Shown here one piece after another: positions 45,505-64,000 of a stretch of DNA of 64,000 bases. Numbering within the stretch: the stretch's first letter is position 1; every line of letters begins with the position of its first letter. The notes below the pieces were generated by a model. The model ran no database searches. It was not told where the DNA came from and was given only the letters and a program-made list of their open reading frames with translations. Source of the stretch: Parvularculaceae bacterium. Its GTDB lineage: Bacteria > Pseudomonadota > Alphaproteobacteria > Caulobacterales > Parvularculaceae. The translations under genes were made by a program, and so were the position numbers. The stretch is from positions 124,001 through 188,000 of the forward strand of contig JAJFFV010000001.1 of NCBI GenBank assembly GCA_021776475.1, given 5' to 3'.

Positions 45505-45580
45505 GGGCCCGTAGCTCAGCTGGTAGAGCAACTGACTTTTAATCAGTAGGTCCTGGGTTCGAAACCCGGCGGGCTCACCA
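45505..45580 (+). tRNA. tRNA-Lys (anticodon UUU)
   Basis: A 76-nt tRNA with encoded CCA. The acceptor stem is GGGCCCG/CGGGCTC with one G-U pair. The D arm contains AGCTCAGCTGGTAGAGC. The anticodon stem ACTGA/TCAGT encloses loop CTTTTAA (UUU). The T arm contains GGTTCGAAACC. It marks the boundary between core genes and the accessory region, and tRNA 3' ends are common integration sites. Confidence 0.97.
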
Positions 45581-45827
45581 TGATTTATGTTTAAAAAACA
45601 ATTAGTTATACAAAAATCTAGCCCTTCATCTCACCTGGATCGTGTTGTTTGCTACCACATTGCAACCAATGTGAGTCAATTCACCTGTCACGCACCGGTT
45701 CCGTACACCAAATCGCACAATCGCATTTCTAATCCGATTATTCCCGAATGGTTGTCAGGAAAAGATCTGGCCGCTAGCATCTCTTCTCTCAGCGGGCAGG
45801 CTTTTTTAAGAAGTGAGAGGTTACCTC

Positions 45828-46011
45828 ATGTCTGAAAATTTGCCCGTTCAATTGGTTGAGTACGATACTCACGGCAAACTCCGCCCGCACTGCCCTTCCC
45901 ACTTACGGCATCGCAGTTTTTGAAGAAGCGGTCCGGCTGATGCCGCACCGACGATACGTGCTGTCGAACAAGGCCCACGTGCTGCGCAAACACAATATCG
46001 AGAAAGTTTGA
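45828..46011 (+). pseudogene. Remnant of a small gene, frameshifted
   Basis: An ATG at 45828 with a GAGAGG ribosome site starts MSENLPVQLVEYDTHGKLR, but that frame soon stops. The +1 frame continues TALPTYGIAVFEEAVRLMPH and onward to HNIEKV and a TGA at 46009. Joined, they give a protein of about 60 residues. The two parts look coding, but I do not recognise the family. The rest of the 600-bp region between tRNA-Lys and the TR holds nothing else I can support. Confidence 0.35.
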
Positions 46012-46180
46012 ATTGTAGTGGATTGCGGTCTGCTCCGGTTGCCCGCCCTCTGCTCCGGCTCAATTATCCGGCAAAGCAAGGACGGAGACAGACACCCTGC
46101 CACTCTTCAAGATCGACCTTGGACGCTCTAATGCACTCTCTTCAAAACCCTGATTTTGAAAATCCTCACTTCAGAGCATA

Positions 46181-46294
46181 CTGGCTAGACGAAACCCAAT
46201 ATTGTTGTTCCGGTTCGTCGGCGTGTTCCTGTTGCGGTTGGCGGAGCGGAGGTTCTCTGGCGTGTTGTTCCATGAGCCACCGCGGATCACGCGG
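46181..46294 (-). repeat. DGR template repeat (TR)
   Basis: On the minus strand this 114-nt non-coding repeat matches the VR at 47852-47965. If translated in the VR frame it reads [20 protein letters not shown] followed by [13 protein letters not shown], with ten Asn codons (AAC/AAT). AAC-rich templates are the hallmark of DGR TRs because adenine mutagenesis of AAC yields many residues but no stop codon. Its 5' end overlaps the last codons and stop of the reverse-transcriptase gene. Confidence 0.95.
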
Positions 46295-47381
46295 TTCGTG
46301 CAAAAGATCGATCAGGCCCTGCCCTAATGCTCTTCATTGAACGGGCAAGGATCGCGTGCCTTAGCGCACGCGAATTAGTATGCCGAGCATGAGCTGCCCA
46401 GGCGTTGATTTTGACAAGTGCTTCTTCGGTCGAGAGCGTGCCAGCTCTAACAGCAGCAACCATTCCTTTCAGGCGGCCTTTGAACGCTTTCACATTTTTT
46501 TCAGGCAAAGATCGTTTTCCATTTCTATGCAGAACAATACCCAGAAATTCTGATGCTTCCTCAGTAGGTGATATTTTCGTTTTTCGCTGGTGCAATTGCA
46601 ATCGGCGCTGACCGATGAAGCTCGCGATATTATCGCGCCAAATCGAGAGCACTTTCGGGTTATCATGAAACAGAGCGAAGTCGTCTACATACCGAAGATA
46701 AGGTGCAGCTAAAACTTCACTCGCGTAATGATCTAACGGATCGAGGTATAAATTTGCGCTGAACTGACTCATTAAGTTACCTATCGGCAAGCCTCTCGTT
46801 CTCTCCAACGGAGTTAATAAATCATCACCTTGAAAATGCCTATCAACTGGTTCTTGCGGGTTCGAGCCGTCAACTATGACATCCATTAACTCTAGCGTTC
46901 TCTGGCAGGAAATGCGTCGGCGAAAGTCACACTTCAATACTTCATGATCGATGGCGGGAAAATATCGAAAAACATCGCACCGCAAAACATAACGATACCT
47001 ATTCCGGTAGCGCTCATAGGTCTTTATTGCCCTATGTGTGCCTTTACCAATTCGATTGGCGAAAGAATTATCGATAAACCCAGCTTCAAACAGCGGCCCG
47101 ATAACTTCCACTAGCGCATTTTGCACGACGCGATCCCGAAAAGGGGCCGCCGAAACTATTCTTTTCTTCGGACGCTTCAACTCAATTTCCAGATACCGGC
47201 CCGTCCGATATGTGCCGCTTTCGAGTTCTATTTCCAGTTTGAGCAGTTCTCTTTCCAAAGAAAACTGAAACGCAGCAGCTCCCGCTTTGTTACGCTTGCC
47301 TCGAATGGCACGCTTTGAAGCTCGGTACAGAGCATCAAACGTTGCCACCTGTTGAAACAGCTTGTCGTGACGTTTTGGCAT
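46287..47381 (-). CDS. Diversity-generating retroelement reverse transcriptase
   Basis: A 364-residue RT starting [10 protein letters not shown]. The catalytic Asp residues are in [12 protein letters not shown] (D136) and YVDD (231-234). Motif 4 reads LPIGNLMSQ (198-206), with the SQ pair that separates DGR RTs from group II intron and retron enzymes. It copies TR RNA with adenine-specific errors, and the cDNA replaces the VR. The start at 47381 leaves a 47-bp overlap with avd; an open frame extends upstream to 47567, inside avd. Order on the minus strand is target-avd-RT-TR. Confidence 0.95.
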
Positions 47382-47739
47382 GTTGTGCTTTTTGCCACCC
47401 CCCGATGCTGCGTCCAATCTCGTCAATTTGTCGAGCTGCATACTGATACGAATCACCATTGATGAGTCGCGTTTCGACTGCAAGCCGAAACAAAAATCTG
47501 CTCTTTTCCAATTTGATTTGAGCTTGATACAAGAGGGAGCCTCGGTCCTTCTTGTATGTCGCCTCAACGACGATCATCAAGACATCAATAATCGTCGCAT
47601 GAAGTCGGTCACCGACAGTAAATTTGTGAGCCCTTGGAAATTTTTCGACCTTGGCCGTTACCCAAACCAAAAACTGAAAGCACAATTCGGCAATCGGCTT
47701 TCCTGGATTTTTGATGGTATTTGGCGCAGAACGATTCAC
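47335..47739 (-). CDS. avd: DGR accessory protein Avd
   Basis: A 134-residue, Lys/Arg-rich, all-helical protein matching the bAvd family: FQFLVWVTAKVEKFPRAHKF, DRLHATIIDVLMIVVEATYK, and the closing YAARQIDEIGRSIGGW. In Bordetella phage BPP-1, Avd forms a pentamer that binds the RT and is required for mutagenic homing. It starts at GTG 47739, 102 bp after the target gene stop, and overlaps the RT gene. Confidence 0.92.
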   Translation of the reverse strand: MNRSAPNTIKNPGKPIAELCFQFLVWVTAKVEKFPRAHKFTVGDRLHATIIDVLMIVVEATYKKDRGSLLYQAQIKLEKSRFLFRLAVETRLINGDSYQYAARQIDEIGRSIGGWQKAQHAKTSRQAVSTGGNV

Positions 47740-47841
47740 AAATGCTTCTTTATGTTGTATAAAGATTAAGTATTGATTCGTTATTTACGATTGCAACAGA
47801 GCAGGAGTTGAAACAGGTAAACATGTAAATAGGATAACAGG

Positions 47842-50052
47842 TTAAAGTGTCCTGGCGAGACGGAACCCAACCGTGTAACCCGGTTCGTCGGCGAGAACCC
47901 GGTTGCGGTTGGCGGAACGGAGGCCCTCTGGCGTGTTGAGCCATGAGCCGCCGCGGATCACGCGGCCCGTACATTTGCCGCCAAGATAGGCCGCGCCATT
48001 TGCATTTTGTCCGCTTAAGGAACTACGATAGCAATCCTCTACCCATTCATAGACATTGCCGTGCATGTCATAGAGTCCAAAGGGGTTGTCCAGGAACTGA
48101 CCAACAGGGGCCGTATTCACCCACTGGTCACGACCGCTCGCCAAGCCGGTACAACATTCATCCTTACCGTAGTTGGCAAACCCGTGGCTGGCAGATGAGC
48201 CCCAGGGATACGCCGATGTCGTGCCACCCCTCGCAGCATATTCCCACTCGGCTTCGGTTGGCCGACGATAGCCACTGCGCGAATTGGTATTGACGTAGGA
48301 AGCGAATACACCCGCGTCTGCCCAGTCAACTTCGATCACTGGGCGACGCCCCTTCCCGTAGCTGTTATCCCCGCCTGCAGCTGTGACCGGACCCTGATTG
48401 CAATAGCCTGCACTGACACAGGCATCCCATTCATCCCAGGTGGTTTCAAATCGAGCGATCGCGAAGCGACGAATAGAGACCCTTTGCTGAGGACCTTCGT
48501 CTGTCTGTCGCGTCGGTTCTGAGCTCGGGCTTCCCATGGTGAAGTTGCCGTTGGGGATCACCACCATGTCAGGACATTTTGCACATTCCCTGAACAAGGC
48601 GAAGTCAGGCAAAGTTGCAGGATCGACCGAGATGATTGGCGCCCGGGTAGACGGCGGCGTCGAGCGGGCATCCACATAAGATGGTTGTGCAGGTTGCTTT
48701 TCAGTTCGCAACAATCGTCCCGATACAAAGCCAACACTGCCGTCGGCCATTGCGATACGATACCAGTCCCTGCCAACAACCTCACCAGTCAGCGTGACTT
48801 CATCTCCGCCACCCAATTGAATGATAATTTCATACTCAGTGCTCGGTCCTAGACGAACATTTGCAGGTCCAGTGGTATACCGCGTACCAGTTTGTTCAAG
48901 CACTTCAAATGCCGGCTGGCTTACGACCGGATCGTTTCCGCCCGGTGCTTCATCCGTCAGTAAGCTCGCAAAGACGTAGCCGATTTCGCCTCCCGGCCCG
49001 ACGATCTGATACCATTCACGGCCATCCTGTCCCCTTTTGATACGGCCGGTGACGATGACCTTTTCCCCCGCTTCCAGCGTACCAAGAACACCTGAGCTGG
49101 CACTATCTGATCTGTAGACCGCAATTTCCCGCACGTCTTGTGCGTACATGATCTTATTCAGAACTTCATCAATTCGAGTAGCTCCGCCACCGCCTACAGA
49201 ATTTTCCACCAAAGGTGTTTCAAAGGCTTTGTTCAGCCTTAATAGTGGACTTGCTTCCAGAAGCTTCACCATGCGCTTGGCGGAGTTATACTTGCCGGGG
49301 CCAGTGCTGCCCGGGCCAGCATAATGTAGCCCGACGACGCCGCGACCAAACTCAGTAAAAATCGGCGCGCCGGAACTGCCCGGCAATGTATCGCACGAGT
49401 GAAAGATTTTGTCACTTGAAGGTTGGAAATTTCCTGCAACACGGCATCCCGTTCTCGAAACATATTTTGGATACCCTGCCGGATGATGAAACATCGTCAG
49501 CGAGGTTCCTGCCGACGGGTCTTCATCAAGTATCTTGATCGTGCCGTACTGTTCTGATGGATTACCGAGAACCCTCAAAATGGCGTAATCCAGATCCTTG
49601 TTTGCTTCCACAGGATCACTCTTGACACTGTACCGGCGTACCGTGTTCTGGTTGGCTTCGTCGTAGTAGCCCATGACTAGCTCGACGTCCCTGGCCTTTC
49701 CCGCATCGCCGGTGCCCGGTACGCAATGATAGTTTGTAAGGATCAGGTCTGACGAAATAATCGAGGCCGTGCAGGTGCCCATTCCACGGATGCCAATTAA
49801 GTTCCTGTAGAGAATATCAAGCCGGCCAATGGGTTCGCTTAGCTTCCTAAGAGCAGATTGAGCGTTATAGATAAGCAATGGTTCGAATTTGGCACGGTTA
49901 CCGAGAATTGCTTCATATTGTTCGCTCGTCTGCGTGCCCTGTTTAAACTCAAGGTCATTATTGCCGAACTGGTCGGCATCGAACATGAGATCCTGAGCGG
50001 CAGCGGACGCTACACCAAGAAATATGCTCACTATACAAATGAAAATTTTCAT
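47842..50052 (-). CDS. DGR variable protein: secreted trypsin-like protease + two SH3-like domains + FGE/C-type-lectin domain
   Basis: A 736-residue exported protein (signal peptide 1-20). Residues 60-275 are a trypsin-fold domain with a probable triad H109 (TNYHCVPG), D153 or D155 (KDLDYAIL) and S227 (LPGSSGAP). Two bacterial SH3-like domains follow (about 305-367 and 390-450). Residues 490-736 form a formylglycine-generating-enzyme-type C-type-lectin fold (IPNGNFTMGS, RRPTEAEWEYAARGG, GNVYEWVEDCY). VR covers residues 697-734. The likely role is a binding protein with a diversified surface. ATG 50052 follows GGAG; a TTG lies upstream. Confidence 0.93.
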   Translation of the reverse strand: MKIFICIVSIFLGVASAAAQDLMFDADQFGNNDLEFKQGTQTSEQYEAILGNRAKFEPLLIYNAQSALRKLSEPIGRLDILYRNLIGIRGMGTCTASIISSDLILTNYHCVPGTGDAGKARDVELVMGYYDEANQNTVRRYSVKSDPVEANKDLDYAILRVLGNPSEQYGTIKILDEDPSAGTSLTMFHHPAGYPKYVSRTGCRVAGNFQPSSDKIFHSCDTLPGSSGAPIFTEFGRGVVGLHYAGPGSTGPGKYNSAKRMVKLLEASPLLRLNKAFETPLVENSVGGGGATRIDEVLNKIMYAQDVREIAVYRSDSASSGVLGTLEAGEKVIVTGRIKRGQDGREWYQIVGPGGEIGYVFASLLTDEAPGGNDPVVSQPAFEVLEQTGTRYTTGPANVRLGPSTEYEIIIQLGGGDEVTLTGEVVGRDWYRIAMADGSVGFVSGRLLRTEKQPAQPSYVDARSTPPSTRAPIISVDPATLPDFALFRECAKCPDMVVIPNGNFTMGSPSSEPTRQTDEGPQQRVSIRRFAIARFETTWDEWDACVSAGYCNQGPVTAAGGDNSYGKGRRPVIEVDWADAGVFASYVNTNSRSGYRRPTEAEWEYAARGGTTSAYPWGSSASHGFANYGKDECCTGLASGRDQWVNTAPVGQFLDNPFGLYDMHGNVYEWVEDCYRSSLSGQNANGAAYLGGKCTGRVIRGGSWLNTPEGLRSANRNRVLADEPGYTVGFRLARTL
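47852..47965 (-). repeat. DGR variable repeat (VR)
   Basis: A 114-nt segment at the 3' end of the target gene that matches the TR. Relative to TR Asn codons it encodes Leu705, Gly710, Val719 and a wholly changed run of residues 719-728. Most substitutions fall at template adenines. The conserved 3' end (GGGTTCCGTCTCGCCAG against GGGTTTCGTCTAGCCAG) is the probable initiation-of-mutagenic-homing site. Confidence 0.95.
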
Positions 50053-50112
50053 ACTCTCCAATTTTCCAACCCCAGGGGCAACTTAAGTGACACTTTTAAT
50101 TACAATGACGAT

Positions 50113-51705
50113 TTACTGCAGTTCGCGCACCGTATCACAACTGATTTGATCGCCGCCGTTACAGGCCTTGCGATAATAGCGTAGAGCTTGGGTCTTGTTT
50201 CGGGTGACACCCTTACCATACTCGTACAACCTACCTAGATTATAGCAGCCGATGGCACTGCCACCATCGCACGCCATTCGATAATAACGCGCTGCCTCAG
50301 CGTAGTTTCTTGTGACGCCCTGGCCATTGTCATAACGAACACCAAGATCGGCGCATCCCTCCACATACCCGGCATCGCAGGCGTTGCGGAACAGGCGCAC
50401 AGCCTCAGCATAATTTTTGGTTACGCCAGTTCCTTCTGCATATAGAGAGCCAAGATTGGCACACCCTTTTGCATCGCCACTATCGCACGCCTTGCGATAA
50501 TAACGCGCTGCCTCAGCGTAGTTTTGTGAAACACCCCGACCATTGTCATACAGAATCCCTAGATTTGCACAGCCGATGGCACTGCCACCGTCGCACGCCT
50601 TGCGATAATAACGCGCTGCCTCAGCGTAGTTTCTCGTGACACCCTGGCCATTCTCATAGCGAAAACCAAGATTGGTACAGCTCCATGCTTCGCCGCCATC
50701 GCATCCCCTGCGAAAATACGGCACGGCCTGAACATAGCTTTGCGATACACCCTCTCCCGTTGCGTACTTGTATCCCAACACAGCGCAATCATAGGCGCTT
50801 CCTCCATCACAGGCGTTGCGAAGTTTGGCGCTTTCCGAAAGCTCGGCCTGGCTGCTCTCTGGCACCAACGGCTGACTGAAGTTTTGGTTGATCCGCAATC
50901 CCGGACTAGCGGCCAACAGGCGCACCATTCGTTTGGCTGAGTTATATTGACCAGGGCCGAGGCTGCCAGGTCCGGCGTAGTGAAGACCGAGAACGCCGCG
51001 GCCAAATTCGGCAAAAACCGGTGCGCCGGAAGAGCCAGGCAATGTATCGCAGGAATGGAGTATTTTGTCTGTGTTCGCCTTGTAATTTCCTGCCACCCGG
51101 CAGCCCGAACGGGTCACGTGTTTTGGATAGCCCGCCGGATGATGAAACATGAGCAATGATGCCCCAGGTTTCGGGTCCTCATTGAGGATTTTGATTGTAC
51201 CAAACCGGGCCGCAGGATTTTCAGAAACGCGCAGCAGCGCATAGTCAAGGGTGCGGTTTGCTTCAACCGGCACTGGGCTTACTGTGTAGCGGCGCACGGT
51301 GCTGGTATCGGCCTGATCATAATAACCCATGACCAGCTGCGCAGCTGTTACCGGGCCAAGATTTCCAAGGCCCGGCACGCAGTGATAATTGGTCAGTATG
51401 AGGCTCGATGAAACAACCGAGGCTGTGCAGGTTTCCATTCCACGTGAACCATGTCGCACATCCAACCGGCCAATGGCTTCGCTTAGTCGTCTGAGAGCGG
51501 AATCAGCTGAATAGGTTATGAGAGGCTCGAACTTGGCAGTGTTTCCGAGAATAGCTTCATATTGATCACCGGAACTCGATTGCCGGAACTCAAGGTTTAT
51601 GTTGCCAAACTGGTCAGCATCAAAAAGCAGGTTTTGCGCATTTGCCTCGGCGGACAACACCAATGCTGCGATCATCGAAAAACAGAATACGGACAATCTA
51701 ATCAT
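50113..51705 (-). CDS. Secreted trypsin-like protease with C-terminal Sel1 repeats
   Basis: A 530-residue protein with a signal peptide (1-24, ending EANAQ). The N-terminal 280 residues are a close paralogue of the DGR target, with the same DADQFG start, TNYHCVPG, LDYALL and LPGSSGAPVF catalytic segments. From about residue 285 there are six or seven 36-residue Sel1 repeats, each with paired Cys (CDGGSAIGCANLG), like the disulfide-bonded Hcp proteins. There is no VR. The start overlaps the DUF1353 stop by eight bases. It lies 60 bp upstream of the target gene, probably in the same operon. Confidence 0.88.
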   Translation of the reverse strand: MIRLSVFCFSMIAALVLSAEANAQNLLFDADQFGNINLEFRQSSSGDQYEAILGNTAKFEPLITYSADSALRRLSEAIGRLDVRHGSRGMETCTASVVSSSLILTNYHCVPGLGNLGPVTAAQLVMGYYDQADTSTVRRYTVSPVPVEANRTLDYALLRVSENPAARFGTIKILNEDPKPGASLLMFHHPAGYPKHVTRSGCRVAGNYKANTDKILHSCDTLPGSSGAPVFAEFGRGVLGLHYAGPGSLGPGQYNSAKRMVRLLAASPGLRINQNFSQPLVPESSQAELSESAKLRNACDGGSAYDCAVLGYKYATGEGVSQSYVQAVPYFRRGCDGGEAWSCTNLGFRYENGQGVTRNYAEAARYYRKACDGGSAIGCANLGILYDNGRGVSQNYAEAARYYRKACDSGDAKGCANLGSLYAEGTGVTKNYAEAVRLFRNACDAGYVEGCADLGVRYDNGQGVTRNYAEAARYYRMACDGGSAIGCYNLGRLYEYGKGVTRNKTQALRYYRKACNGGDQISCDTVRELQ

Positions 51706-52357
51706 CACTGAAGGTCCCATATGATATATATGTCTGCCGCAATTCAAAATACTGCGTCTCAAACTCATCACACGGAATTTCAGCGACATGGGCGTCAGCC
51801 GGTTTTTCGAATGGCGGCTCCACGGGCTTTAGCGTCAGTGGGTCGAAAAACGTCCATTCCTGATCCGCGCCATAGGCTTCATTGCCGCCCATCCTGACGG
51901 ACTGGTACATCGTGCGGCGGGGTAGAAATCCGACACCCTGTTCCTGCATCGCGAAACGGAAAATCTGGTCGGCTTCAAGGCGCTTGCCCTCTTCCCCGAC
52001 AGCATAAAGCCAGTCATGGATCACGGCTGCTTCTGCATGATCGCCGAAGGGATTGATGAGCCCCTGAACCGCCTCCGGGATCGAGGCAAAATCTGTCAGA
52101 TAACCACGCGGCACACGATAGACCTTGCCGGTCGGTGGGTAACAATAGAGCCAGTCATCGGACAGGATGGAAACGCGGCGACTTTGCTTGCGCGGGTCAC
52201 GCAGCAGGACAAGAGGCATCGACAATTGCGCCTGCTCAACAACGAAATCGTCAACGGTGTCGACAGGTGCGACATCGCTAGTGCCGAGAACGTCAAACTT
52301 GACAGCGGCAAAGGCTAACGCCGCAACAATCACCAAGAAAAGCAGTAAAACCCGCAC
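51698..52357 (-). CDS. DUF1353 family protein, membrane-anchored
   Basis: A 219-residue DUF1353 protein starting at GTG 52357, which has a strong GAGGGGG ribosome site. An N-terminal TM segment (VLLLFLVIVAALAFAAVKF) is followed by GYLTDFASIPEAVQG and AAVIHDWLYAVGEEG. It is a paralogue of the 5338-6078 gene. As the first gene of the operon that includes the DGR target, avd and RT, it could work with the exported proteases. Confidence 0.82.
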   Translation of the reverse strand: MRVLLLFLVIVAALAFAAVKFDVLGTSDVAPVDTVDDFVVEQAQLSMPLVLLRDPRKQSRRVSILSDDWLYCYPPTGKVYRVPRGYLTDFASIPEAVQGLINPFGDHAEAAVIHDWLYAVGEEGKRLEADQIFRFAMQEQGVGFLPRRTMYQSVRMGGNEAYGADQEWTFFDPLTLKPVEPPFEKPADAHVAEIPCDEFETQYFELRQTYISYGTFSDD

Positions 52358-52550
52358 CAGTGCCCCCTCTGAACTGTCCCTGCACAATAATGTACAGGCG
52401 GGAGGCTATTTTGCAAGTTGGACAAGAAACCGGCCAAATCCTGGTCGATCTGTACCATAGTCATGAATCGAAGGAGTCCTGCCAATGAGCCCAAACTTGT
52501 TACGGCCTCAATAAGATAGCCGCGCTTAGCCATAGGTTGTTTTTGTTGCT

Positions 52551-52633
52551 GTCTGTGCTCAAGACACCCTCTGTAGGGACGATTTTTCGCATAGCGGGCA
52601 TGTTAGGAGCTACCCTCACCTGTCTTCTGCAGT
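52551..52633. repeat. Direct repeat copy A (83 bp)
   Basis: This segment is about 86% identical to 61061-61144, in the same orientation, with one gap. It covers the 3' end of the DUF5681 gene and, on the minus strand, a possible ATG-initiated peptide MPAMRKIVPTEGVLST whose counterpart in copy B is MPGIRKIVRTEGVLST. Confidence 0.8.
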
Positions 52634-52987
52634 ACCTTCTTGAGTGTTCTCTAGGTCGGCCTTTAATCCAGATCGGCTACCAGCCTCAACAATTACGTGC
52701 CGCACTTCCGTAATCTGTTGGGATTGATTGTGCATCGTCAGCATCATCTCGCGTGGGATCAGGTGAGCAACGGTCTTTAGATAGGCGACCGGATTCTCTT
52801 TCGCCACACGGCTTAGAATATCACGTCCACGCTCTTGCCAGCTTTCATACAAGTCGGTGAGAAACTCTTCTCCAAGCTTGTTGCGTGCGCCTTTCGGTCG
52901 GCCTTTTGGATTACCTGACTGTCCGGGTTTGAATGCGTGTTCAACTAAGTGCGACGCCGGGTGTTTTCTGATTGTATTATCAGCCAT
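52616..52987 (-). CDS. DUF5681 domain protein
   Basis: A 123-residue protein with the DUF5681 signature FKPGQSGNPKGRPKGARNKL and a helical segment (ESWQERGRDILSRVAKENPV). DUF5681 proteins are small and frequent in phages and integrated elements, often near terminase genes; their function is unknown. Its last codons lie in direct repeat copy A. It marks the left side of the 8.5-kb repeat-bounded block. Confidence 0.82.
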   Translation of the reverse strand: MADNTIRKHPASHLVEHAFKPGQSGNPKGRPKGARNKLGEEFLTDLYESWQERGRDILSRVAKENPVAYLKTVAHLIPREMMLTMHNQSQQITEVRHVIVEAGSRSGLKADLENTQEGTAEDR

Positions 52988-53023
52988 TGCGGATTCCTTC
53001 TTTCCTGCTCCTCTGGTAATCCT

Positions 53024-56000
53024 CTAGAAAAGAAAATCACTCGCTTGGAGTGAGTCTGCTACGACCCCCTCAAGTATAAGCTTCGTGCCGTTGCCAAAAT
53101 CGATGATGGTGTCACCACCTGATTCTGTCATCAGTCCTTGTAATTTTGCAAATTGCGTCTCAGATCGGCCATCGAGCCAGCCAAGCCTGATAATGTCGCC
53201 CTCTGCTGAGTTGAAATCTTCGATGACATCTTGGCCTCCGCTGAATACAAAGACATCCGCTCCGGAGCCACCGATCAGTGTGTCGTCACCTCGGCCTCCG
53301 AGCAAGAAATCATCACCGGCACCCCCATCCAGGGTGTTGCCAAGATCCACGATCTCATCGGCAAAGAAAAAATCAAAAACGCCCGTGACAAGCCGAGGGT
53401 CAAACGTATCCATGAAAGAATGCAATGCACTATCGCCTAAGGGCACCTGAAGGCGAACCCCCATCGAGACTAGCGCATTGCCAAGCAGCAAGTCTGAACC
53501 CTCTCCCCCGATTAACGTATCACTTCCCGCTGAACCGATCATCGCGTCGTTATCGCCTCGAAAGTCGGCAAACAAGTCGTTACCGTCGGTTCCCCTAAGG
53601 ATGTTTATGCCTTCAAAAGTAAGTTGTATGTTGTCATATTCAACCTGGTCGGTCGATCCATTGATAGAGATGGACACATCTGTAGTTGCGCTACTAATTC
53701 CATCGGAAATTGTATAGGAGAAGCTGTCGAGTGCAGTCTCCCCGTCATTCAGGTCGGCAAAAACACCATTAGGATCGTAGGACCAAGTGCCATCTGCCTG
53801 AACATTCAGGATCGCGCCTGACGCCAATATGACCTGGCCACCGACGTTGGATTCACTTCCGTTTACAGAGGCAACGCGCAAAATATCATTCGTATCAGGG
53901 TCTTGATCATTACTAAGGAGATTACCCGGGCGGACAATTCGATCATCTTCGTTGACAGTTAATTCATCGGAAACCGCCTCGGGAACATCATTGATGCCGG
54001 TTACTGTTATCGAAACAGTCGCCTCCTCCGAGGTGTCGTTGTCCGCACCGCTGTCATCGCTGGCGACATATGTGAATGTCACTAGCTGGGTCTCGCCGTC
54101 AGACAATGTGTCAAAGTCGGTACCGGGATCGAAAGTAAACGTGCCGTCATTGTTGCTGATAGCAGAGCCTAGAACAGGTGCACTGGTGATGGCAAAGGTC
54201 AGTTCATCGTTCCGGTCAACATCTGAACCGTCAAAACTGCCGGTAACCGATGCATCTTCTATTGCTTCTGTTGAAACAAAGCCAGCAATCGGCGCATCGT
54301 TTGAACCGGTCACGGTTATCGAAACAATTGCCTCTTCCGAGGTGTCGTTGTCAGCGCCGCTGTCATCATTAGCAACATAACTAAACGTGACCAGTCGGGT
54401 TTCTCCTGCAGACAGATCATCAAAATCTGCACCGGGATCGAATGTGAATGTGCTATCACCGTTATTGATCACCGTTCCGAGAGGAGGTAAGGATGTAATT
54501 GTGAAGGTGAGTTCATCGTTCTCATCTACGTCGAAGCCACTGAAGATACCTGTCAATAGGTCATTCTCAAGTCCCTCGGACGTTACCGCATCTACAGTCG
54601 GTTCGGAATTTTCGAACGGTGGCAAGTCCGAGGTAACCACGGACTGGTCATCGAACTGCAGTTGATTGATGCCGAACAGGGTATCGGTGCCGTCTATACC
54701 CTCGACAGTGAGAGAGCCATCTGCGTTTACGGTAACTGTGTACTGATCGCTACTCCCTGAGAAAACGGCAATATCAGTTCCGTTGTCACCAAATAGGACG
54801 TCATTACCGCCCCCGCCGACTAGAGTGTCGTTACCAAAGCTGCCGACCAGGGTATCTGCCTGATCTCCACCTAGAAGAGTGTCATCGCCATGCGCCCCCA
54901 CAAGAGTAAGGTTACCGATTGTAACTTGTGAGCCGTCTAGGGTGTAAGCATTGGGTGTTGTTGAGTTTGATGTTCGTACTTCTAAGGCTCCGCTTGAGCC
55001 AATGTTTGCATCAGAAAACACAAACAGCTCATCTTCTGAAGAATTGCGGTCAACCTCTATAAACTCGAAGTTTCGTATCAAAGAAAAATCTATGGCAATA
55101 TCGCCGGCGCCACCGCCAAGTATGTTAATGCGATCAAATCCAGCACCTCCATCAATTAGTTCAGGCTGCTGAGTGAAGAACCTATTTATTTGTACCTGAT
55201 CATCTCCGGATCCCATATCAATAAAGCGTGCTTGACGACCAACCAAAAAGTCATCGTCATTTCCTGCGTACACTGTGATATTATAGACCCCGTTGAAGGT
55301 TCTTATTAAATCATTACCATCCCCGCCAAATACTTCTCCTTCGCCAATGCCCGAAGTTTCATCGCGATCACCGATATACAAAGTATCATTGCCTGCTCCC
55401 CCGTTTAAAATGTTAAACCCAGCATTGCCGATGAGTTGGTCACCACCAGCTCCCCCGAACAGAGTATCATTTCCGTCGCCTCCGGAAATAACGTCACCAC
55501 CAGCTCCCCCAATTAAAAGATCTGCTCCACCGAGCCCCTCTATAGTGTCATCACCACCAAGTCCGTTTATCTCGTCATCACCCTCAGTTCCGGTCAGAAC
55601 ATCATCAACCTCAGTGCCCGTGATAACATTGAAAAAAATGGGGTCGGTGCTGAAACCATAATAGATCGCTCCAGATCCAAATGATTGGTTCTGTTGGTTT
55701 TGAACTATGCCGCCAACAAACAGGTCATCAAATCCATCGCCGTTAACATCGCCGATTCCGGCCGTCGAGAAGTCTGGCGCATTGCTCAACATAAATACGC
55801 CATCGATGGTTACGCCAAGATCAATTGTTAAATTAGTTACGTCGATGGGTTCATTTCCAATGCTGGTTGATCCAAAGATGATGAAAACTTGTCCTGTTGT
55901 TGCGCCACCATCTGTAACGAAAAAATCATCTATCCCGTCACCGTTAAAATCACCGGCTTGGCCAATTTTTCGCGGTAACACGCCAGCCCCAGGGACAGTA

Positions 56001-57277
56001 ACTAGGAATCCCGTCTCCTGGCTCAATGACGATTGGCCAGGATCACTTGATACGAAGAAATCAGCCGCCAATTCGCCAGAAGATCCATAAATCACAAAAT
56101 AGCCAACATTCTCGACAAACACACCGATGTCATCCAATCCATCAGCATTGACGTCGCCCAGCCCGCTGAATGAGAAGCCTGTATTGTTCGCCCGATCATC
56201 GTCATTCCCAACAATTGTGAATCCGTTGCTTCCATTCAATCCACTAAAATCGAAATTTGCCCCAAAACCGTTTTCATCCCCGAATATGACGTGCACACTA
56301 CCATTCGGAAAATCGGCGGTGCCGATCAACAGATCATCAAGACCATCACCGTTGAAATCCCCGGCGTGAGCAACTTTTCGACCTGAGAATGAACCGGACG
56401 AGAACACAGTCGCGACGCTGTTGCTGCCTTGATTATTTCCAAGAACAAGGAAGGCATTGTCGGTCTTATCCTCACCGATGAGGAGGTCGTCAAAACCATC
56501 TCCGTTGATGTCTCCGACACCTGAAATAGAGCTCCCAAAATTTTGACTGTTCCCGATACCCCTGATCAGCAAGCCTGTTTCGGTTGTCAATGTGGTCAAA
56601 TCTATTAACGGTTGAAATCCATTCCCTTGGCCAAAGACTATATAAACGTCTCCTGCTGTTCCAACGCCGGGGCCGCTGACGGCAAAATCATCTATCCCAT
56701 CACCATTAAAATCGCCCAGACCGGTAACCGAAGCGCCAATTTGGTCATTCCCATTTATCTGGTTTGTACCACCAACAATATTAAACCCATCATTACCGTT
56801 CAATGAGTCAAGCCCTGTGCTTGTTGGTATGGCGCCCGTACCGAACACCAGCCACGCCTCGCCAGTGTGATTGCCGGGCGGTACAATCGGACCAGAGAAT
56901 CGGCTTCCGATGATGAAATCACCGAAGCCATCGCCGTTGACGTCCCCGGCGAAAGAAGCAACCCGAAAATTGGTCCCAAGATCCGCTGTGATGGCTGTTT
57001 GTATACCGACTGAATAAATCAGTTCCACCTGACCATTCATCAGATCAAATTGTAGCTGTTCTATGCTGGTTAAGACATCAAATCCATCCGGACCGGATAG
57101 AGATAAACCGCCACCAACGTTGAAAGTGAGCGAGTAATTTGACGATGAACTCGCAAAAACCGCGGTATCGATCCCGTCACCACCGTTTATCGTGTCATCG
57201 CCTTGCAAGCCTGTGAAGGTATCATCATCAGGCGTTCCAATGAGAACGTCATTAGAGACCGTGCCAATTACGTCCAT
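53024..57277 (-). CDS. Giant RTX adhesin with FG-GAP and cadherin-like repeats
   Basis: A 1417-residue exported, Ca-binding protein. An N-terminal RTX segment (GDDTINGGDGIDTAVFA) is followed by seven FG-GAP/integrin-alpha repeats (GDVNGDGFGDFIIGS type), RTX nonapeptide blocks (GGAGNDTL), two near-identical cadherin/VCBS-like repeats (SDDSGADNDTSEEATVSITV), a further VCBS-type domain and a C-terminal RTX block. It ends in a hydrophobic LQASDFLF tail, typical of type I secretion. ATG 57277 has GGAAGG eight bases upstream; the frame is open to 57358. No ABC transporter, membrane-fusion or TolC gene is in the window. Confidence 0.93.
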   Translation of the reverse strand: MDVIGTVSNDVLIGTPDDDTFTGLQGDDTINGGDGIDTAVFASSSSNYSLTFNVGGGLSLSGPDGFDVLTSIEQLQFDLMNGQVELIYSVGIQTAITADLGTNFRVASFAGDVNGDGFGDFIIGSRFSGPIVPPGNHTGEAWLVFGTGAIPTSTGLDSLNGNDGFNIVGGTNQINGNDQIGASVTGLGDFNGDGIDDFAVSGPGVGTAGDVYIVFGQGNGFQPLIDLTTLTTETGLLIRGIGNSQNFGSSISGVGDINGDGFDDLLIGEDKTDNAFLVLGNNQGSNSVATVFSSGSFSGRKVAHAGDFNGDGLDDLLIGTADFPNGSVHVIFGDENGFGANFDFSGLNGSNGFTIVGNDDDRANNTGFSFSGLGDVNADGLDDIGVFVENVGYFVIYGSSGELAADFFVSSDPGQSSLSQETGFLVTVPGAGVLPRKIGQAGDFNGDGIDDFFVTDGGATTGQVFIIFGSTSIGNEPIDVTNLTIDLGVTIDGVFMLSNAPDFSTAGIGDVNGDGFDDLFVGGIVQNQQNQSFGSGAIYYGFSTDPIFFNVITGTEVDDVLTGTEGDDEINGLGGDDTIEGLGGADLLIGGAGGDVISGGDGNDTLFGGAGGDQLIGNAGFNILNGGAGNDTLYIGDRDETSGIGEGEVFGGDGNDLIRTFNGVYNITVYAGNDDDFLVGRQARFIDMGSGDDQVQINRFFTQQPELIDGGAGFDRINILGGGAGDIAIDFSLIRNFEFIEVDRNSSEDELFVFSDANIGSSGALEVRTSNSTTPNAYTLDGSQVTIGNLTLVGAHGDDTLLGGDQADTLVGSFGNDTLVGGGGNDVLFGDNGTDIAVFSGSSDQYTVTVNADGSLTVEGIDGTDTLFGINQLQFDDQSVVTSDLPPFENSEPTVDAVTSEGLENDLLTGIFSGFDVDENDELTFTITSLPPLGTVINNGDSTFTFDPGADFDDLSAGETRLVTFSYVANDDSGADNDTSEEAIVSITVTGSNDAPIAGFVSTEAIEDASVTGSFDGSDVDRNDELTFAITSAPVLGSAISNNDGTFTFDPGTDFDTLSDGETQLVTFTYVASDDSGADNDTSEEATVSITVTGINDVPEAVSDELTVNEDDRIVRPGNLLSNDQDPDTNDILRVASVNGSESNVGGQVILASGAILNVQADGTWSYDPNGVFADLNDGETALDSFSYTISDGISSATTDVSISINGSTDQVEYDNIQLTFEGINILRGTDGNDLFADFRGDNDAMIGSAGSDTLIGGEGSDLLLGNALVSMGVRLQVPLGDSALHSFMDTFDPRLVTGVFDFFFADEIVDLGNTLDGGAGDDFLLGGRGDDTLIGGSGADVFVFSGGQDVIEDFNSAEGDIIRLGWLDGRSETQFAKLQGLMTESGGDTIIDFGNGTKLILEGVVADSLQASDFLF

Positions 57278-57472
57278 AAAACGGACCTTCCCAAGGATAG
57301 AGGCACTCAACAGTATTGGATCATTTTGACGCGCCGAGTTGACGTGAGTCAATGGCACGCAATACCTAGAATCACTCGCTTTTTGGGTTGCGTTGCCTCT
57401 TCAAATTCATTACCCGGTTAATAGCTCAAGGGATGTAGCGTCCGGTTATAGTTTGTGAAACAGGACTGAGTT

Positions 57473-57967
57473 ATGAACATTTGGCGAGTAGTCGGGTGGA
57501 TTTCCCTAGCTGTCTCAGTGATGTCGGCTGTTTCGCTGGTGGAGGGCGCTTTCACCGAAGCTCTTAGTCCATATTTGCAGAATCTCTTTGGAGAACTCAT
57601 CGAAAGATACCGAAACCTTCGGTCTGCTACATTTCATGCTGTTAGCATTCAGTTCAATGGAATTGTGAACGTTGTCGCACGGGCGCTAACCTGGTTCCCA
57701 CCGGCACCTTGGTTTGAAATCGGACCAATCGTCCAAGATGTGCTAACTGTTATTTCTCTATCTATAATTTCAATTCGAAACGGTGTCAGACAGGCGTAGC
57801 GGGAACTACTGCAGCGTCAGCGTAATCGTCGCAGTTATGCTATATTACAACGTGCAACGATCATTGGGTTTATAGCCAAAGAATCGATATGGTGTTTTGT
57901 TTCTCTATTGCTTTCGTCTAGCGTTTACTTTGCTCTTGCGTACGGCTCAACCCGGCTTGGGCTCTAA
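57473..57967 (+). pseudogene. Small membrane protein gene with in-frame amber stop
   Basis: From ATG 57473 the frame encodes MNIWRVVGWISLAVSVMSAV and on to a TAG at 57797. The same frame then stays open for a further 55 codons (RELLQRQRNRRSYAILQRAT through ESIWCFVSLLLSSSVYFALA) and ends at TAA 57965. The second part is a credible basic loop plus TM helix. Together they form a protein of about 163 residues with three to four TM segments. I do not recognise the family. Either the TAG is a nonsense mutation or the functional protein is the 108-residue first part. Confidence 0.5.
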
Positions 57968-58029
57968 CATTGGCTTGGAGATCACTCCGACCGTTCTTTG
58001 GTTCGCCATTCATTCTTAGGGAACTATTA

Positions 58030-58255
58030 CCTAGCCAGCGATCGGAGCTGGTGCGGCTGGTCCAAGTTCATTGATGAATCGGCTGGCGATCAGTACACCA
58101 TCGCCATAGTCTTTTTGCGCAGGCAAGCCCTACTGCAAATCCGTATTCATGCGCATACTCAACCATCGCCGGGATCGGTTCTGCCGTAGACGGCGCATCT
58201 GCCTGCCAATGCGATACAGGTTCTCTTCAAGCTGCGCTTCGGACTGGGTGGTCAT
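58030..58255 (-). pseudogene. Decayed small gene coupled to the upstream membrane protein
   Basis: An ATG (58253-58255) overlaps the TGA of the 58252-58908 gene as ATGA. Its frame gives MTTQSEAQLEENLYRIGRQM and stops at 58130. Two frameshifts downstream open a coding-looking run (IPAMVEYAHEYGFAVGLACA, then KDYGDGVLIASRFINELG) that ends in a TAG near 58035. It is likely a small gene carrying one or two indels. No family assigned. The remaining DNA between this and 57967 holds nothing I can support. Confidence 0.35.
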
Positions 58256-58908
58256 TTCTTATTGCTTCTGGCCATCAGCAATAAGATGACAAGCCCAATA
58301 AAAATGATCAGGAATGGCCTAATCTCAAGTGGAATAAAATCAAATCCCAGTTCAAATATAAGGAGAGTCAGCGCGATGAATACACCCATGCGGTTGGCAA
58401 TACGCTCCGCATCTGAAGTATTGTCCCAGAATTTTTCGAACCAGTTCTGTTTGCCTATATTGAAATGGAAGATCCCCGTTTTCTTCTCGGTGACGTCATC
58501 TTGAGGGAAAAGCGTGTGAAAGACTTCCAGCGGTAGTTCAATTTTGTTCTTGTTACCTTCTGCAGTAAAAGACCATACAATCTCAATATCTGTACCCAGT
58601 CTTTTATACTTTCCTTTGTTGTCTGGCTGCAAACTAAAAATTTTCAATAATTCACCGCGCTTGAACGGTCTGTTCTGAAACAAAGAGTTGGGAATTCGCA
58701 CATCTCTATAACGTTCGCTCGCGTGAATTTCCAACTCATGTACATGCTCGCTATCCAGAGACATCGTATCCCGTCGAAAGGGGTAATGCATCAACTGCGC
58801 TATCCACGGCAACAAAAGTCCGCCGAGAGCGCCAACAGCCAACAGAAAAACAAGTTGCTCAGCGGGCAGCCCGTCAAACATGTTCAGAACTTCTCTTACA
58901 TTCCCCAT
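58252..58908 (-). CDS. Hypothetical membrane protein
   Basis: A 218-residue protein from ATG 58908 (GGGGA eight bases upstream; 58923 is an alternative). It has an N-terminal TM (AEQLVFLLAVGALGGLLLPW), a soluble beta-rich domain of about 110 residues (HELEIHASERYRDVRIPNSL...EIVWSFTAEG), then two C-terminal TMs (FIALTLLIFELGFDFIPL and IRPFLIIFIGLVILLLMA). I do not recognise the domain. Its position between an adhesin and a restriction gene does not show a role. Confidence 0.65.
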   Translation of the reverse strand: MGNVREVLNMFDGLPAEQLVFLLAVGALGGLLLPWIAQLMHYPFRRDTMSLDSEHVHELEIHASERYRDVRIPNSLFQNRPFKRGELLKIFSLQPDNKGKYKRLGTDIEIVWSFTAEGNKNKIELPLEVFHTLFPQDDVTEKKTGIFHFNIGKQNWFEKFWDNTSDAERIANRMGVFIALTLLIFELGFDFIPLEIRPFLIIFIGLVILLLMARSNKK

Positions 58909-59177
58909 GACGATTATCCCCATGACACTTTCGCTCTGCTTATCAAACAAACTTCTTTGGCAACAGGCCTTTCTTGTACGCCTCGACTTGAGAGATTTGG
59001 GCGGCCACCGCTGCGGTCTTTCACTGTCCGAGAAAACCAAACTAGCAATCTATTTTGAATTGTATCAATATGAACCCCGCTACATGGCGGTGCGCGCTCT
59101 GATCACCAACCATCTTGCGAGCACACAGGGATTCAATTTAACCTAAACAGGTTACTTGAGCGAGCAGAGGCCCCCCA

Positions 59178-60860
59178 ATGACGATAAATGCCCAAAACCG
59201 ACTCCTGCCAGATTGGCTTACACGTATCCGAACTCGGCAGACCGTCCTCCCACGGTTTCAACGCTTTGAGGCGTGGAGCCATTCGAACGTTGCCCTGCTA
59301 CTCAACACGATCCTGCAGGGGTTGCCTGTGGGAGCGCTTTTGACACTTGAGATCGGTAATGAGGAGCCGTTCATCTCGCGGCCCATCATTGGCGCGCCTC
59401 AAGAGGGTGAGCGAATCACCGAGCATCTCTTGGACGGACAGCAAAGGCTGACCGGAATATGGCGTGCGCTTCACAACAATTACGAGGATCGCACATACTT
59501 CGTATTTTTTAGTCCTGACGAAGAAACGGGCACGCCCTATTACATTGACTCGATTGGGCGCTGGAAAAAGGACAAGGACGAGACATTCCGGCCGTTCTGG
59601 GCGAACACACCAATCGGTCAATGGCAGCGCAGAATGATTCCTTTGGATCTTTTTGCGCCTGGTGATGCGGCTAGTGAAGCTTACAAGCTCTGGGCGAAGC
59701 TGGCGATCAGCGGCTTCGATGAACGCGAGGAAATCGCTGATATACGGTCCACAATTAGGCAAAAGATAGCGACGTTCAACCTGCCTTATCTATCGTTGCC
59801 GGTGACCACATCCAAGGAAACTGCCCTCGACGTATTTCTCAAAATGAACACCTCGGCAGCCCCTTTGAAAACATATGATATTGTTGTCGCGCAGGTCGAA
59901 GGCGCACTTGGGCAATCACTCCATGACCTTGTCGCTGACGTGAAGACGACATGCCCCAACATTGCTTCATACTATGATCCGGCGGAGCTAACGTTGTATG
60001 CCAGCGCCTTGCTCCAGGAAAAACCGCCCACGAACAAAACTTATCTGGACCCCGCATTCGGAGAGCATCTGCTACGACATTGGGATGAGCTGACCAGCGG
60101 CATTGAAAGGGCTGAAGCCTTCCTTGAGGAAGAACGCATCTTCGATGCTGCGCGCCTGCCGACGGACCTCATCGTGCCTGTACTGACAGCCCTCTGGGCG
60201 ATCGCGCCTGATGGGCTGGACGCGGAAGGAAAATGGCGGTCGACCCTGAGAACCTATGTCTGGCGGGCGGCATTCTCGAACAGATACGAGAAATCCACGA
60301 GCACACGTGCGCTCACAGACTATCTAGAGATACGGGATCATCTTGTAGGCAAGCCTGACATGACACCCACGATCTTCAATCTGAACCTGCACCCTCTTCC
60401 AGAAGAAAGTGAGCTGCAACTCGCGGGCTGGCCAACGAAGAAAGAGCGTCTCGCACGCGCGATCCTCGCTCTGGCGCTGCGCGAAGGCGGGCACGATCTG
60501 GCCGACGGCAGCACGGTTAATCGCAACAACATAAAGAAGAGGGAGTATCATCACCTCTTTCCGGACGCACACCTGACCAAGCTGGGTCTCAGTCAACGCG
60601 ACATTTATCGGTCGCTGAACTGTGCACTGATTACATGGCGAACCAACCGCAACATCTCCGCCAAGGATCCCGAACGATACCTCGCCGAACGCCTGGACGG
60701 GACCGGCATCGACGAACAGGAAGTTCGGCAAAGGCTGTCTAAACACCTGGTCCCTTACGACGAAATGGTTGCTGGTGACTATGAGTCGTTCATGATCGCG
60801 CGCGCAAAGTTAGTGAACACCAAGATGCGACAGCTCTGCCGCGTCGAGGCGTCTGCATGA
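59178..60860 (+). CDS. GmrSD-type restriction protein (DUF262 + HNH-like), single chain
   Basis: A 560-residue protein. The N-terminal DUF262/ParB-like NTPase-type domain has VLPRFQRFEAWSHSNVALLL and the diagnostic LLDGQQRLTGIWRAL. The C-terminal part has REYHHLFPDAHL, the HNH-type motif of DUF1524. This is the GmrS-GmrD fused layout of modification-dependent type IV restriction enzymes, which cut DNA with modified cytosines and defend against phage. No partner gene adjoins it. It lies between direct repeats on an element. Confidence 0.85.
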   Translation: MTINAQNRLLPDWLTRIRTRQTVLPRFQRFEAWSHSNVALLLNTILQGLPVGALLTLEIGNEEPFISRPIIGAPQEGERITEHLLDGQQRLTGIWRALHNNYEDRTYFVFFSPDEETGTPYYIDSIGRWKKDKDETFRPFWANTPIGQWQRRMIPLDLFAPGDAASEAYKLWAKLAISGFDEREEIADIRSTIRQKIATFNLPYLSLPVTTSKETALDVFLKMNTSAAPLKTYDIVVAQVEGALGQSLHDLVADVKTTCPNIASYYDPAELTLYASALLQEKPPTNKTYLDPAFGEHLLRHWDELTSGIERAEAFLEEERIFDAARLPTDLIVPVLTALWAIAPDGLDAEGKWRSTLRTYVWRAAFSNRYEKSTSTRALTDYLEIRDHLVGKPDMTPTIFNLNLHPLPEESELQLAGWPTKKERLARAILALALREGGHDLADGSTVNRNNIKKREYHHLFPDAHLTKLGLSQRDIYRSLNCALITWRTNRNISAKDPERYLAERLDGTGIDEQEVRQRLSKHLVPYDEMVAGDYESFMIARAKLVNTKMRQLCRVEASA

Positions 60861-61060
60861 GGAAGAAAAGCATTAGGATTTTTATGCCGTTCCTATTGTT
60901 GAATGTGTGTTGAACAGTTGAGGCATTTCCAACTATGCACTCAGAAATCTACCGGCGGCTCCGCCTCATATCAGTCGCACAGAGGGGCTGCTCAATCAAA
61001 TCCACCAGCACTCGATTAACGACTAATAGACGCCGGTGGGCTCCTGTTCATATTTTTTGC

Positions 61061-61144
61061 GTCCGGTGCTCAACACACCCTCTGTGCGGACGATTTTTCG
61101 AATACCGGGCATTTTAAGAGCTAACCTCACCTGTCTTCTGCGGT
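61061..61144. repeat. Direct repeat copy B (84 bp)
   Basis: About 86% identical to 52551-52633 in the same orientation. It covers the 3' end of the small Cys-rich gene and a minus-strand peptide MPGIRKIVRTEGVLST. The two copies bracket 8.4 kb holding the adhesin and restriction genes. Confidence 0.8.
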
Positions 61145-61314
61145 GTGAGATTTGTAAGACTTCCCTTTCTTGAAGGATCAGGGTCTTTGCCAAACCGAAA
61201 CTTGTGCAACTCACAGTCTATCGATGCACAGAGCTTTACCTCCCTCACCTGATCAACACAGCAATCCAGGCACTTCAGCCGGATGAGTTTCAAAATCTCG
61301 GTTTTTGTGGTCAC
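61114..61314 (-). CDS. Small Cys-rich element-borne protein
   Basis: A 66-residue protein: MTTKTEILKLIRLKCLDCCV, then EVKLCASIDCELHKFRFGKD. Short proteins with CLDCC...LC...C spacing and an FRxGK(D/N)P end are frequent in phages and integrated elements. They may bind zinc or nucleic acid; the function is not established. It lies downstream of the ATPase gene on the same strand, separated by about 190 bp holding the GGAAACA cluster. Confidence 0.75.
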   Translation of the reverse strand: MTTKTEILKLIRLKCLDCCVDQVREVKLCASIDCELHKFRFGKDPDPSRKGSLTNLTPQKTGEVSS

Positions 61315-61413
61315 CTAATCCTCTCTCCATGATCTCTGTTTTTTCGCCTCATGAGTTGCTTCCAGTTGATCCTGTTTTTCTCCAACGCAGATCGCCTTTT
61401 GTTTCTGTTTGCC

Positions 61414-61505
61414 TGTTTCCTCCCCTAAAGGGGGGAGGGAAACACGGAAACAAGGAAACAAATTATGGGTTTGTTTGCCATTTTGTTTTGGAAACAACGG
61501 AAACA
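61414..61505. repeat. Iteron-like GGAAACA heptamer cluster
   Basis: GGAAACA occurs at 61438, 61446, 61454, 61490 and 61499, with an inverted copy at 61414. The first three are spaced exactly eight bases apart. Three more forward copies (61659, 61677, 61713) and one inverted copy (61640) lie in the adjacent ATPase gene. The array also contains an imperfect hairpin (61415-61443). This could be a replication or binding array for the element. Confidence 0.45.
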
Positions 61506-61508
61506 CTT

Positions 61509-63784: not shown

Positions 63785-63990
63785 TCAGCACACATCCCGA
63801 ATCTGCGCAGAGAATGTCGCCTCAGGGGTGCCTGTCGTGCGTTCCGCCACCGCTCCTGTAGCAGCTCATTCGCGGCCATCTCGGCGTCATCAAGCCGGGG
63901 GAAAATGCACCACATCTCAATCAGTGCGGTTCGGAGTTCCTGAATCTCATGCAGGTCTCGAAGTCGGGGAAGGCAATTATCAGCTGGCAT
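63781..63990 (-). CDS. Small hypothetical protein upstream of the primase-like gene
   Basis: A 69-residue helical protein (LRDLHEIQELRTALIEMWCI, then DDAEMAANELLQERWR) whose end overlaps the primase-like start (ATGA). The coupling suggests a real gene of the element's replication operon. No family recognised. Confidence 0.55.
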   Translation of the reverse strand: MPADNCLPRLRDLHEIQELRTALIEMWCIFPRLDDAEMAANELLQERWRNARQAPLRRHSLRRFGMCAE

Positions 63991-64000
63991 TTGGCAACGC

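Follow-up and report, generated by a model that had tools for sequence, protein, structure and literature searches.

In Bordetella phage BPP-1 (NC_005357), a diversity-generating retroelement (DGR) combines a variable repeat (VR) at the 3' end of its target, a phage tail protein, with Avd, a template repeat (TR) that lies between avd and brt, and a reverse transcriptase (RT), and the consulted parts of PMC12875486 describe a spacer 3' of the TR that folds, recruits bRT-Avd and primes cDNA. The cellular DGRs of Thiohalocapsa PB-PSB1 and related organisms have FGE/CLec targets, some of them predicted to be periplasmic or secreted; the consulted sections of PMC10907252 report peptidase or TIR domains at the N-termini of some targets and propose an effector joined to a variable sensor, but the trypsin-like peptidases named there for some loci are other proteins of the locus and not the target. 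Cyanobacterial multidomain variable proteins likewise join a peptidase to a DGR-variable domain, although the N-terminus described there (PMC7517822) is orthocaspase-like (caspase-like) and not trypsin-like. Variable protein 1 of Treponema denticola (2y3c) is a DGR variable protein of the FGE fold, and its matched chain is without a protease. Here we describe a locus of this kind in a Parvularculaceae bacterium (GenBank assembly GCA_021776475.1), found in a stretch of 64,000 nucleotides (contig JAJFFV010000001.1, positions 124,001 to 188,000; hereafter the window), in which the diversified domain is fused to a trypsin-like domain.

The locus is, on the evidence of its sequence, very probably a bona fide DGR of the lineage with Avd and FGE targets, carried as cargo by a 21.7-kb integrative element that occupies the 3' part of a tRNA-Lys gene (Table 1). 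Its identity as a DGR is argued by the phylogeny of the RT, the presence of Avd, the TR/VR pair, the FGE domain of the target and a conserved spacer RNA. A preliminary description of this DNA had claimed a complete DGR with four parts in one orientation, and all four do lie on the minus strand, in the order target, Avd, RT, TR. The DGR reading of that description stands, but the description did not mention that the DGR is part of an integrated element, that its target includes a protease domain, that a spacer RNA follows the TR, or that the VR shows signs of having long gone unrewritten. The DGR itself is ordinary in kind; it is the target and the carrier which are unusual.

Table 1. Coordinates of the features discussed, numbered from the first letter of the window unless prefixed C1.
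Feature	Coordinates	Strand	Basis
DGR target, 736 aa	47842..50052	-	Pfam; signal peptide by inspection, trypsin-like domain, two SH3_3 stretches, FGE-sulfatase domain
Trypsin_2 domain of target, residues 94-242	49327..49773	-	Pfam 4.6e-17
FGE-sulfatase (lectin-like) domain of target, residues 493-734	47851..48576	-	Pfam 1e-52
VR, 122 nt, with +1/-1 frameshift patch	47852..47973	-	TR/VR alignment, codon reading
Avd	47335..47739	-	NF033474 and bAvd above cut-off
DGR RT, 364 aa from ATG, 47-nt overlap with avd	46287..47381	-	profile, PDB match, tree, motifs
TR, 122 nt, contains RT stop codon	46181..46302	-	alignment
Conserved structured spacer RNA, 3' of TR	46028..46188	-	covariation, covariance model
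tRNA-Lys (TTT), integration site	45505..45580	+	tRNA annotation
attL, 55 bp	45532..45586	+	exact repeat at C1:191235-191289 (attR, beyond window end)
Integrated element, portion within window (21.7 kb between att copies)	45532..64000	.	
Paralogue of target's protease with Sel1 repeats	50113..51789	-	Pfam; 68% identity
AAA_25 ATPase of element	61509..62789	-	
Toprim/DUF7146 primase of element	62765..63784	-	

In a tree of 30 rows (the window RT, 24 other DGR-type RTs and five RTs of group II introns or RT-Cas1), the window RT falls within the DGR group at 100/100, opposite the group II intron and RT-Cas1 enzymes and on the side that includes BPP-1 and two cyanobacterial plasmid DGRs. The grouping with group II introns that the preliminary description had named as telling against a DGR did not occur in this tree, the row set of which excluded retron RTs. 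The sister of the window RT, at 68% identity, is that of Hyphomonadaceae bacterium UBA4763 (locus L010, also G180), which shares a near-identical TR translation and an identical 24-nt spacer motif; its contig, unlike that of the window, stops before the target, such that target and VR are not on it. The motifs LPIGNLMSQ (SQ-type) and YVDD are present as first reported, and the best PDB match is 8ub7, which we take to be the BPP-1 DGR RT, with 131 bits vs 69 for a group II intron RT. An origin of the enzyme in another system (a group II intron, CRISPR RT-Cas1 or antiviral RT) would accord with its NCBIfam, Pfam and PADLOC matches, which are generic or of group II/DRT type; those from NCBIfam are, however, all far below cut-off (the best, a group II model, reaches 127.5 bits vs a cut-off of 300), and given the placement in the tree, the SQ-type motif and the Avd partner we regard such an origin as extremely improbable. 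The group II and RT-Cas1 identities in particular were dropped on the 100/100 placement. The protein first called Avd-type exceeds both curated cut-offs (NF033474, 92 bits vs 80; Pfam bAvd, 62.2 vs 40), and an Avd match is found in 41 of 48 related DGR loci, which come from several phyla.

TR and VR each measure 122 nt rather than the 114 nt originally given, in a gapped alignment with one +1 and one -1 single-base gap. Over its 121 columns there are 21 mismatches, 15 of which fall at the 33 TR adenines (hypergeometric P = 3.6e-6), with three at the 41 C, three at the 16 T and none at the 31 G; conversely, none of the 18 VR adenines is mismatched to the TR. The ten asparagine codons noted earlier are those of the GGSW-GFR core, and the 122-nt TR holds 11 AAC/AAT in all. 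A DNA search of the whole genome with the TR matched only the TR itself and the VR (E = 8e-26) and showed no second VR. The bias must nonetheless be set against the possibility that the TR is a duplicated scrap of an FGE gene and that its adenine signal stems from naturally variable codons. As a control, the TR was aligned to FGE genes from the same genome and from relatives that had yielded no DGR RT; 19 aligned, and of the 19 asked at other loci one gave no motif, leaving 18 counted besides a paralogue on C5 of the same genome. Several of the relatives' genes are also enriched for mismatches at TR adenines (L064, P = 1.8e-6; L060, P = 1.2e-4), and as such adenine enrichment by itself was dropped as proof of a DGR. 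What separates the VR from the control genes is the small number of changes at other bases: 5 of 68 non-A core sites differ from the TR in the VR, vs 11 of 68 in the C5 paralogue and 15-27 of 64-68 in the 18 others. As the VR is far nearer to the TR at these sites, as RT and Avd adjoin the TR, and as a covarying RNA follows it that is also found after the TRs of other DGRs, the scrap of an FGE gene is very unlikely.

The C5 paralogue (C5:914316-915083; L095:8316-10730) encodes an FGE protein 56% identical to the FGE domain of the target, and 17 of 28 adenine sites are changed between the TR and its VR-like stretch; it may be a fossil VR, but the control genes are similarly biased. As a second VR it was dropped, since FGE genes of relatives give comparable enrichment.

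About 160 nt after the TR were aligned from 35 loci including the window (37 were long enough, and two near-copies were omitted). RNAalifold yields a structure of 37 pairs, 33 of them with changes on both sides; 91.5% of cells are paired, vs 72.5% in shuffled alignments and 42-47% with slid partners, and in 20 splits the structures from random halves hold in 87-95% of the cells of the other half vs at most 49% when slid. Of the 37 pairs in a structure derived with the window and L010 set aside, 33 are retained by the window and 28 by L010. A covariance model built without these two finds the window RNA directly after the TR (62.6 bits, E 6e-15; next best in the window 7.8), which is its only match in the whole genome, and Rfam 15 gave no match for the RNA. 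A further test of the model took in 21 sources, 16 with a DGR-type RT, of which six give strong matches, including L020 and L037, near-copies of model rows. Weak matches soon after the RT were seen in an Anabaena plasmid (25.0 bits) and the Microcystis FD4 plasmid (23.2 bits), along with a 16.5-bit match at an unexplained place in Acaryochloris, and none in the loci of Fischerella, Nostoc UHCC 0926 and the Prosthecochloris plasmid or in phages VP58.5, phiARM81mr and Magia. Across 299 genomes of the order the model gave three strong matches, namely the L010 genome, a contig with RT, Avd and FGE targets, and a 3.5-kb contig with a TR and no RT; the filters of this search were stricter and missed the 62.6-bit match of the genome studied here. 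Its three weak matches (26-30 bits) lacked any RT, Avd or FGE match within the 12 kb retrieved. By analogy, the spacer RNA is probably the counterpart of the BPP-1 spacer and likely shares its role in recruiting RT and Avd and in priming cDNA, although the BPP-1 spacer itself goes unmatched by the model (best 8.5 bits, elsewhere). Another DGR of the same order (L124, G167:C44) has two TR-like stretches, FGE targets on opposite strands and RT matches in two frames.

The VR was first placed at the 3' end of a lectin-fold target, and the FGE-sulfatase domain does extend almost to the end of the protein. Ahead of it come what looks on inspection like a signal peptide, then a trypsin-like domain and two SH3_3 stretches. 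The motifs TNYHC, DLDYA and GSSGAP of the trypsin-like domain hold an H, a D and an S, respectively, which are presumably catalytic, and from these features the target is probably a secreted trypsin-like protease. In the PDB it matches the Treponema variable protein (2y3c, 1.7e-12). The adjoining gene encodes a protease that is 68% identical over residues 6-285, with Sel1 repeats replacing SH3-FGE. Among 61 genomes searched, the FGE domain closest to that of the target is the non-DGR C5 gene of the same genome (56%), vs 43% identity at most to related DGR targets, and the target therefore looks like a fusion of two families. Of the 38 targets scanned, counting that of the window, 37 have an FGE domain, the exception (L021) being probably a wrong reading frame, and some of the others carry TIR_2 (5), caspase (3), kinase (3) or NACHT (3) domains. 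No trypsin domain is listed in the 37 other targets scanned singly (for L020, among the matches listed, 25 of 39 families); with the window protease domain as a single-sequence query, none of 49 other target entries matched (some truncated, some double), and no matching ORF occurred in 48 related loci. The words trypsin, protease and peptidase do not occur in PMC8144416 and PMC6642488, and in the consulted part of PMC8934634 Trypsin_2 is named only as an occasional neighbour of RT genes. The two trypsin-like domains of the locus, that of the target and that of its neighbour, also have weak PADLOC matches to the protease portions of defence proteins (RT-Protease_XI 23 bits, LmuA 18, Avs1b 16).

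The preliminary description had placed the DGR next to tRNA-Lys, and the tRNA does adjoin it; the DGR in fact sits inside an element integrated into that tRNA gene. A 55-bp direct repeat running from the tRNA-Lys anticodon arm onward recurs exactly 21.7 kb away, 156 bp from a tyrosine integrase (Phage_integrase 1.5e-23), and the GC content of the element is 50.3% vs 53.4% and 53.7% in the flanks. Besides the DGR, the cargo includes a primase, an AAA_25 ATPase, a GmrSD_N protein, an RTX/FG-GAP protein and two proteases. In three genus members with tRNA-Lys in the fetched stretch the genes on the left side are kept, with no match to the window part of the element, and a search of 60 other genomes, 36 of them from this family, turned up no DGR RT, its two weak matches being an RT-Cas1 enzyme and the RT of a group II intron. 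Taken together, the att repeats and integrase, the GC content, the lack of a match to the window part of the element in the three genus members and the missing DGR RT in the 60 genomes indicate that the cassette is most likely foreign cargo. Of the element proteins scanned (small ORFs were outside the scan), none was named as a capsid, terminase, relaxase or secretion protein, and a prophage or conjugative element was accordingly dropped as its identity; a DUF1353 protein of the element matches a PHROG called tail assembly chaperone.

While the parts, the kinship of the RT, the covarying RNA, the element ends and the integrase can be read from the DNA, priming, mutagenesis and homing are taken from the DGR literature, and a mechanism may be proposed from the two. 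The TR RNA would run on into the folded 3' spacer, which would dock RT and Avd and prime cDNA; the RT would miscopy TR adenines, and the cDNA would replace the VR at the 3' end of the target, altering residues of the lectin-like FGE domain joined to the protease. In what is the weakest of these steps, the diversified domain might then direct the protease to a shifting target in the periplasm or outside the cell. The proposal of an effector joined to a variable sensor, as worded in the consulted parts of PMC10907252 and PMC7517822, fits such a protein, a fit that does not amount to evidence of defence. It may instead be that the diversified domain is a sensor or adhesin, for example of a surface protein binding changing environmental ligands, and that the protease is no defence effector. 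This alternative has a substantial chance of being right, albeit one short of even: no MoxR/vWA, STAND or other conflict-system partner was found among the Pfam-scanned target and element proteins, whereby a ternary or STAND conflict system was dropped, and the same element carries an RTX/FG-GAP/cadherin-like protein (1444 aa, 53024-57358). Set against it, the FGE domain of related targets occurs fused to TIR, caspase, kinase or NACHT domains, a pattern which PMC10907252, in the part consulted, proposes for invasion sensors. A broader proposal would be that of a mobile element with a self-evolving secreted protease that gains new periplasmic or extracellular cleavage targets (e.g. phage or competitor surface proteins), the kit moving via tRNA-Lys integration and the 3' fold of its TR RNA, shared by DGRs of several phyla, being an RNA family not in Rfam; in this full form we consider it rather unlikely. 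The locus extends the known systems in three testable respects: its DGR is borne by a small element that integrates at a tRNA gene, the domain it diversifies is joined to a trypsin-like protease that is probably secreted, and the spacer RNA of one large lineage of cellular DGRs now has a covariance model.

Whether the VR is still rewritten can be judged in part from the changes it has accumulated. None of the six non-A substitutions between TR and VR over the full 122 nt alters the target protein: all are synonymous third-position changes, the pattern that drift would leave if selection had acted on the protein since the last rewriting; at two of the six sites (read from the alignment) the L010 TR carries the base of the VR, and those may thus be changes in the window TR. 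The +1 and -1 indels of the VR push about seven codons out of frame before it is restored, the frame of the TR being the one common to L010. Among 49 TR/VR pairs, a gap not divisible by three occurs in three, the window, L023 and L046 (the latter two placed by hand), and a compensating pair of indels in the window only; a second pair from L018 is absent from this count and present in a parallel one. Given the synonymous drift and the persisting frameshift patch, it is probable that the window VR has long been fully rewritten only rarely or not at all. More generally, this split between adenine changes and purely synonymous others could be used to gauge, from a single genome, the time since a VR was last rewritten.

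For comparison, 42 VR-like ends of related loci were chosen by motif with no adenine-bias filter, one of which (L022, minus strand) is clearly spurious, and set against their own TRs: 626 of 1121 A and 100 of 2779 other core sites differ, where the window VR core has 12 of 27 A sites and the five non-A sites changed. (The TR/VR pairs of the two counts mentioned above, obtained for 34 of 48 loci, were required to have >=60% of mismatches at A or T, and those counts lean toward few non-A changes because of that selection.) With few non-A changes relative to the FGE controls, but only seven of the 42 ends equal to or above it in non-A share, the window VR is to be read as derived from the TR yet less fresh than most related VRs. 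A G/C-rich hairpin with a short loop recurs in the 48 related loci, after about half of the VRs examined and mostly 46-57 nt past the VR core. Stems of >=7 bp follow 24 of 47 related VRs vs 2.2% of shuffles, each of the 24 with at least four G/C in the outer seven, and according to the consulted part of PMC3240598, homing in BPP-1 critically involves a hairpin or cruciform that follows the VR.

Several observations count against the account of the locus given here. The non-A change of the window VR is 7.4%, vs 3.6% pooled (median 1.4%) in the 42 related ends. No G/C-rich hairpin was found after the window VR in the search for stems of >=7 bp, the only such stem starting at +94 with a single G/C pair. 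The spacer model misses 10 of the 16 held-out DGR-RT loci (L011, L029, L044-L047, L050, L053, L054 and L056). Lastly, no clean empty site was seen in relatives, and in the three genus members the right flank is not beside tRNA-Lys. It is conceivable, and in our estimate not far from an even proposition, that the DGR is decayed, in that the same cassette no longer retrohomes in this lineage and the target is now an ordinary fixed protein; this would leave the identity of the locus as proposed and alter only its present function. The non-A drift that is synonymous only, the frameshift patch that persists, the hairpin missing after the VR and an RT branch longer than that of its sister L010 (0.43 vs 0.21) would all suit such a decay. 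Against this, RT and avd are open with their motifs intact, the spacer RNA is conserved, keeping nearly all pairs of a structure derived from other loci, and the seven related ends are equally or more drifted. As such, homing in this lineage would appear to be either rare or stopped, with about even weight on the two.

Two further genes of the element lie beyond the window. Beside the integrase (C1:188677-189900) is a gene for a 407-aa protein with no Pfam, PHROG or PADLOC match; a search of 200 genomes of the order found it in its own genome only. Directly beyond the end of the window, at 64288-64566 in extended numbering, a 92-aa ORF appears by inspection to be AlpA/HTH excisionase-like.

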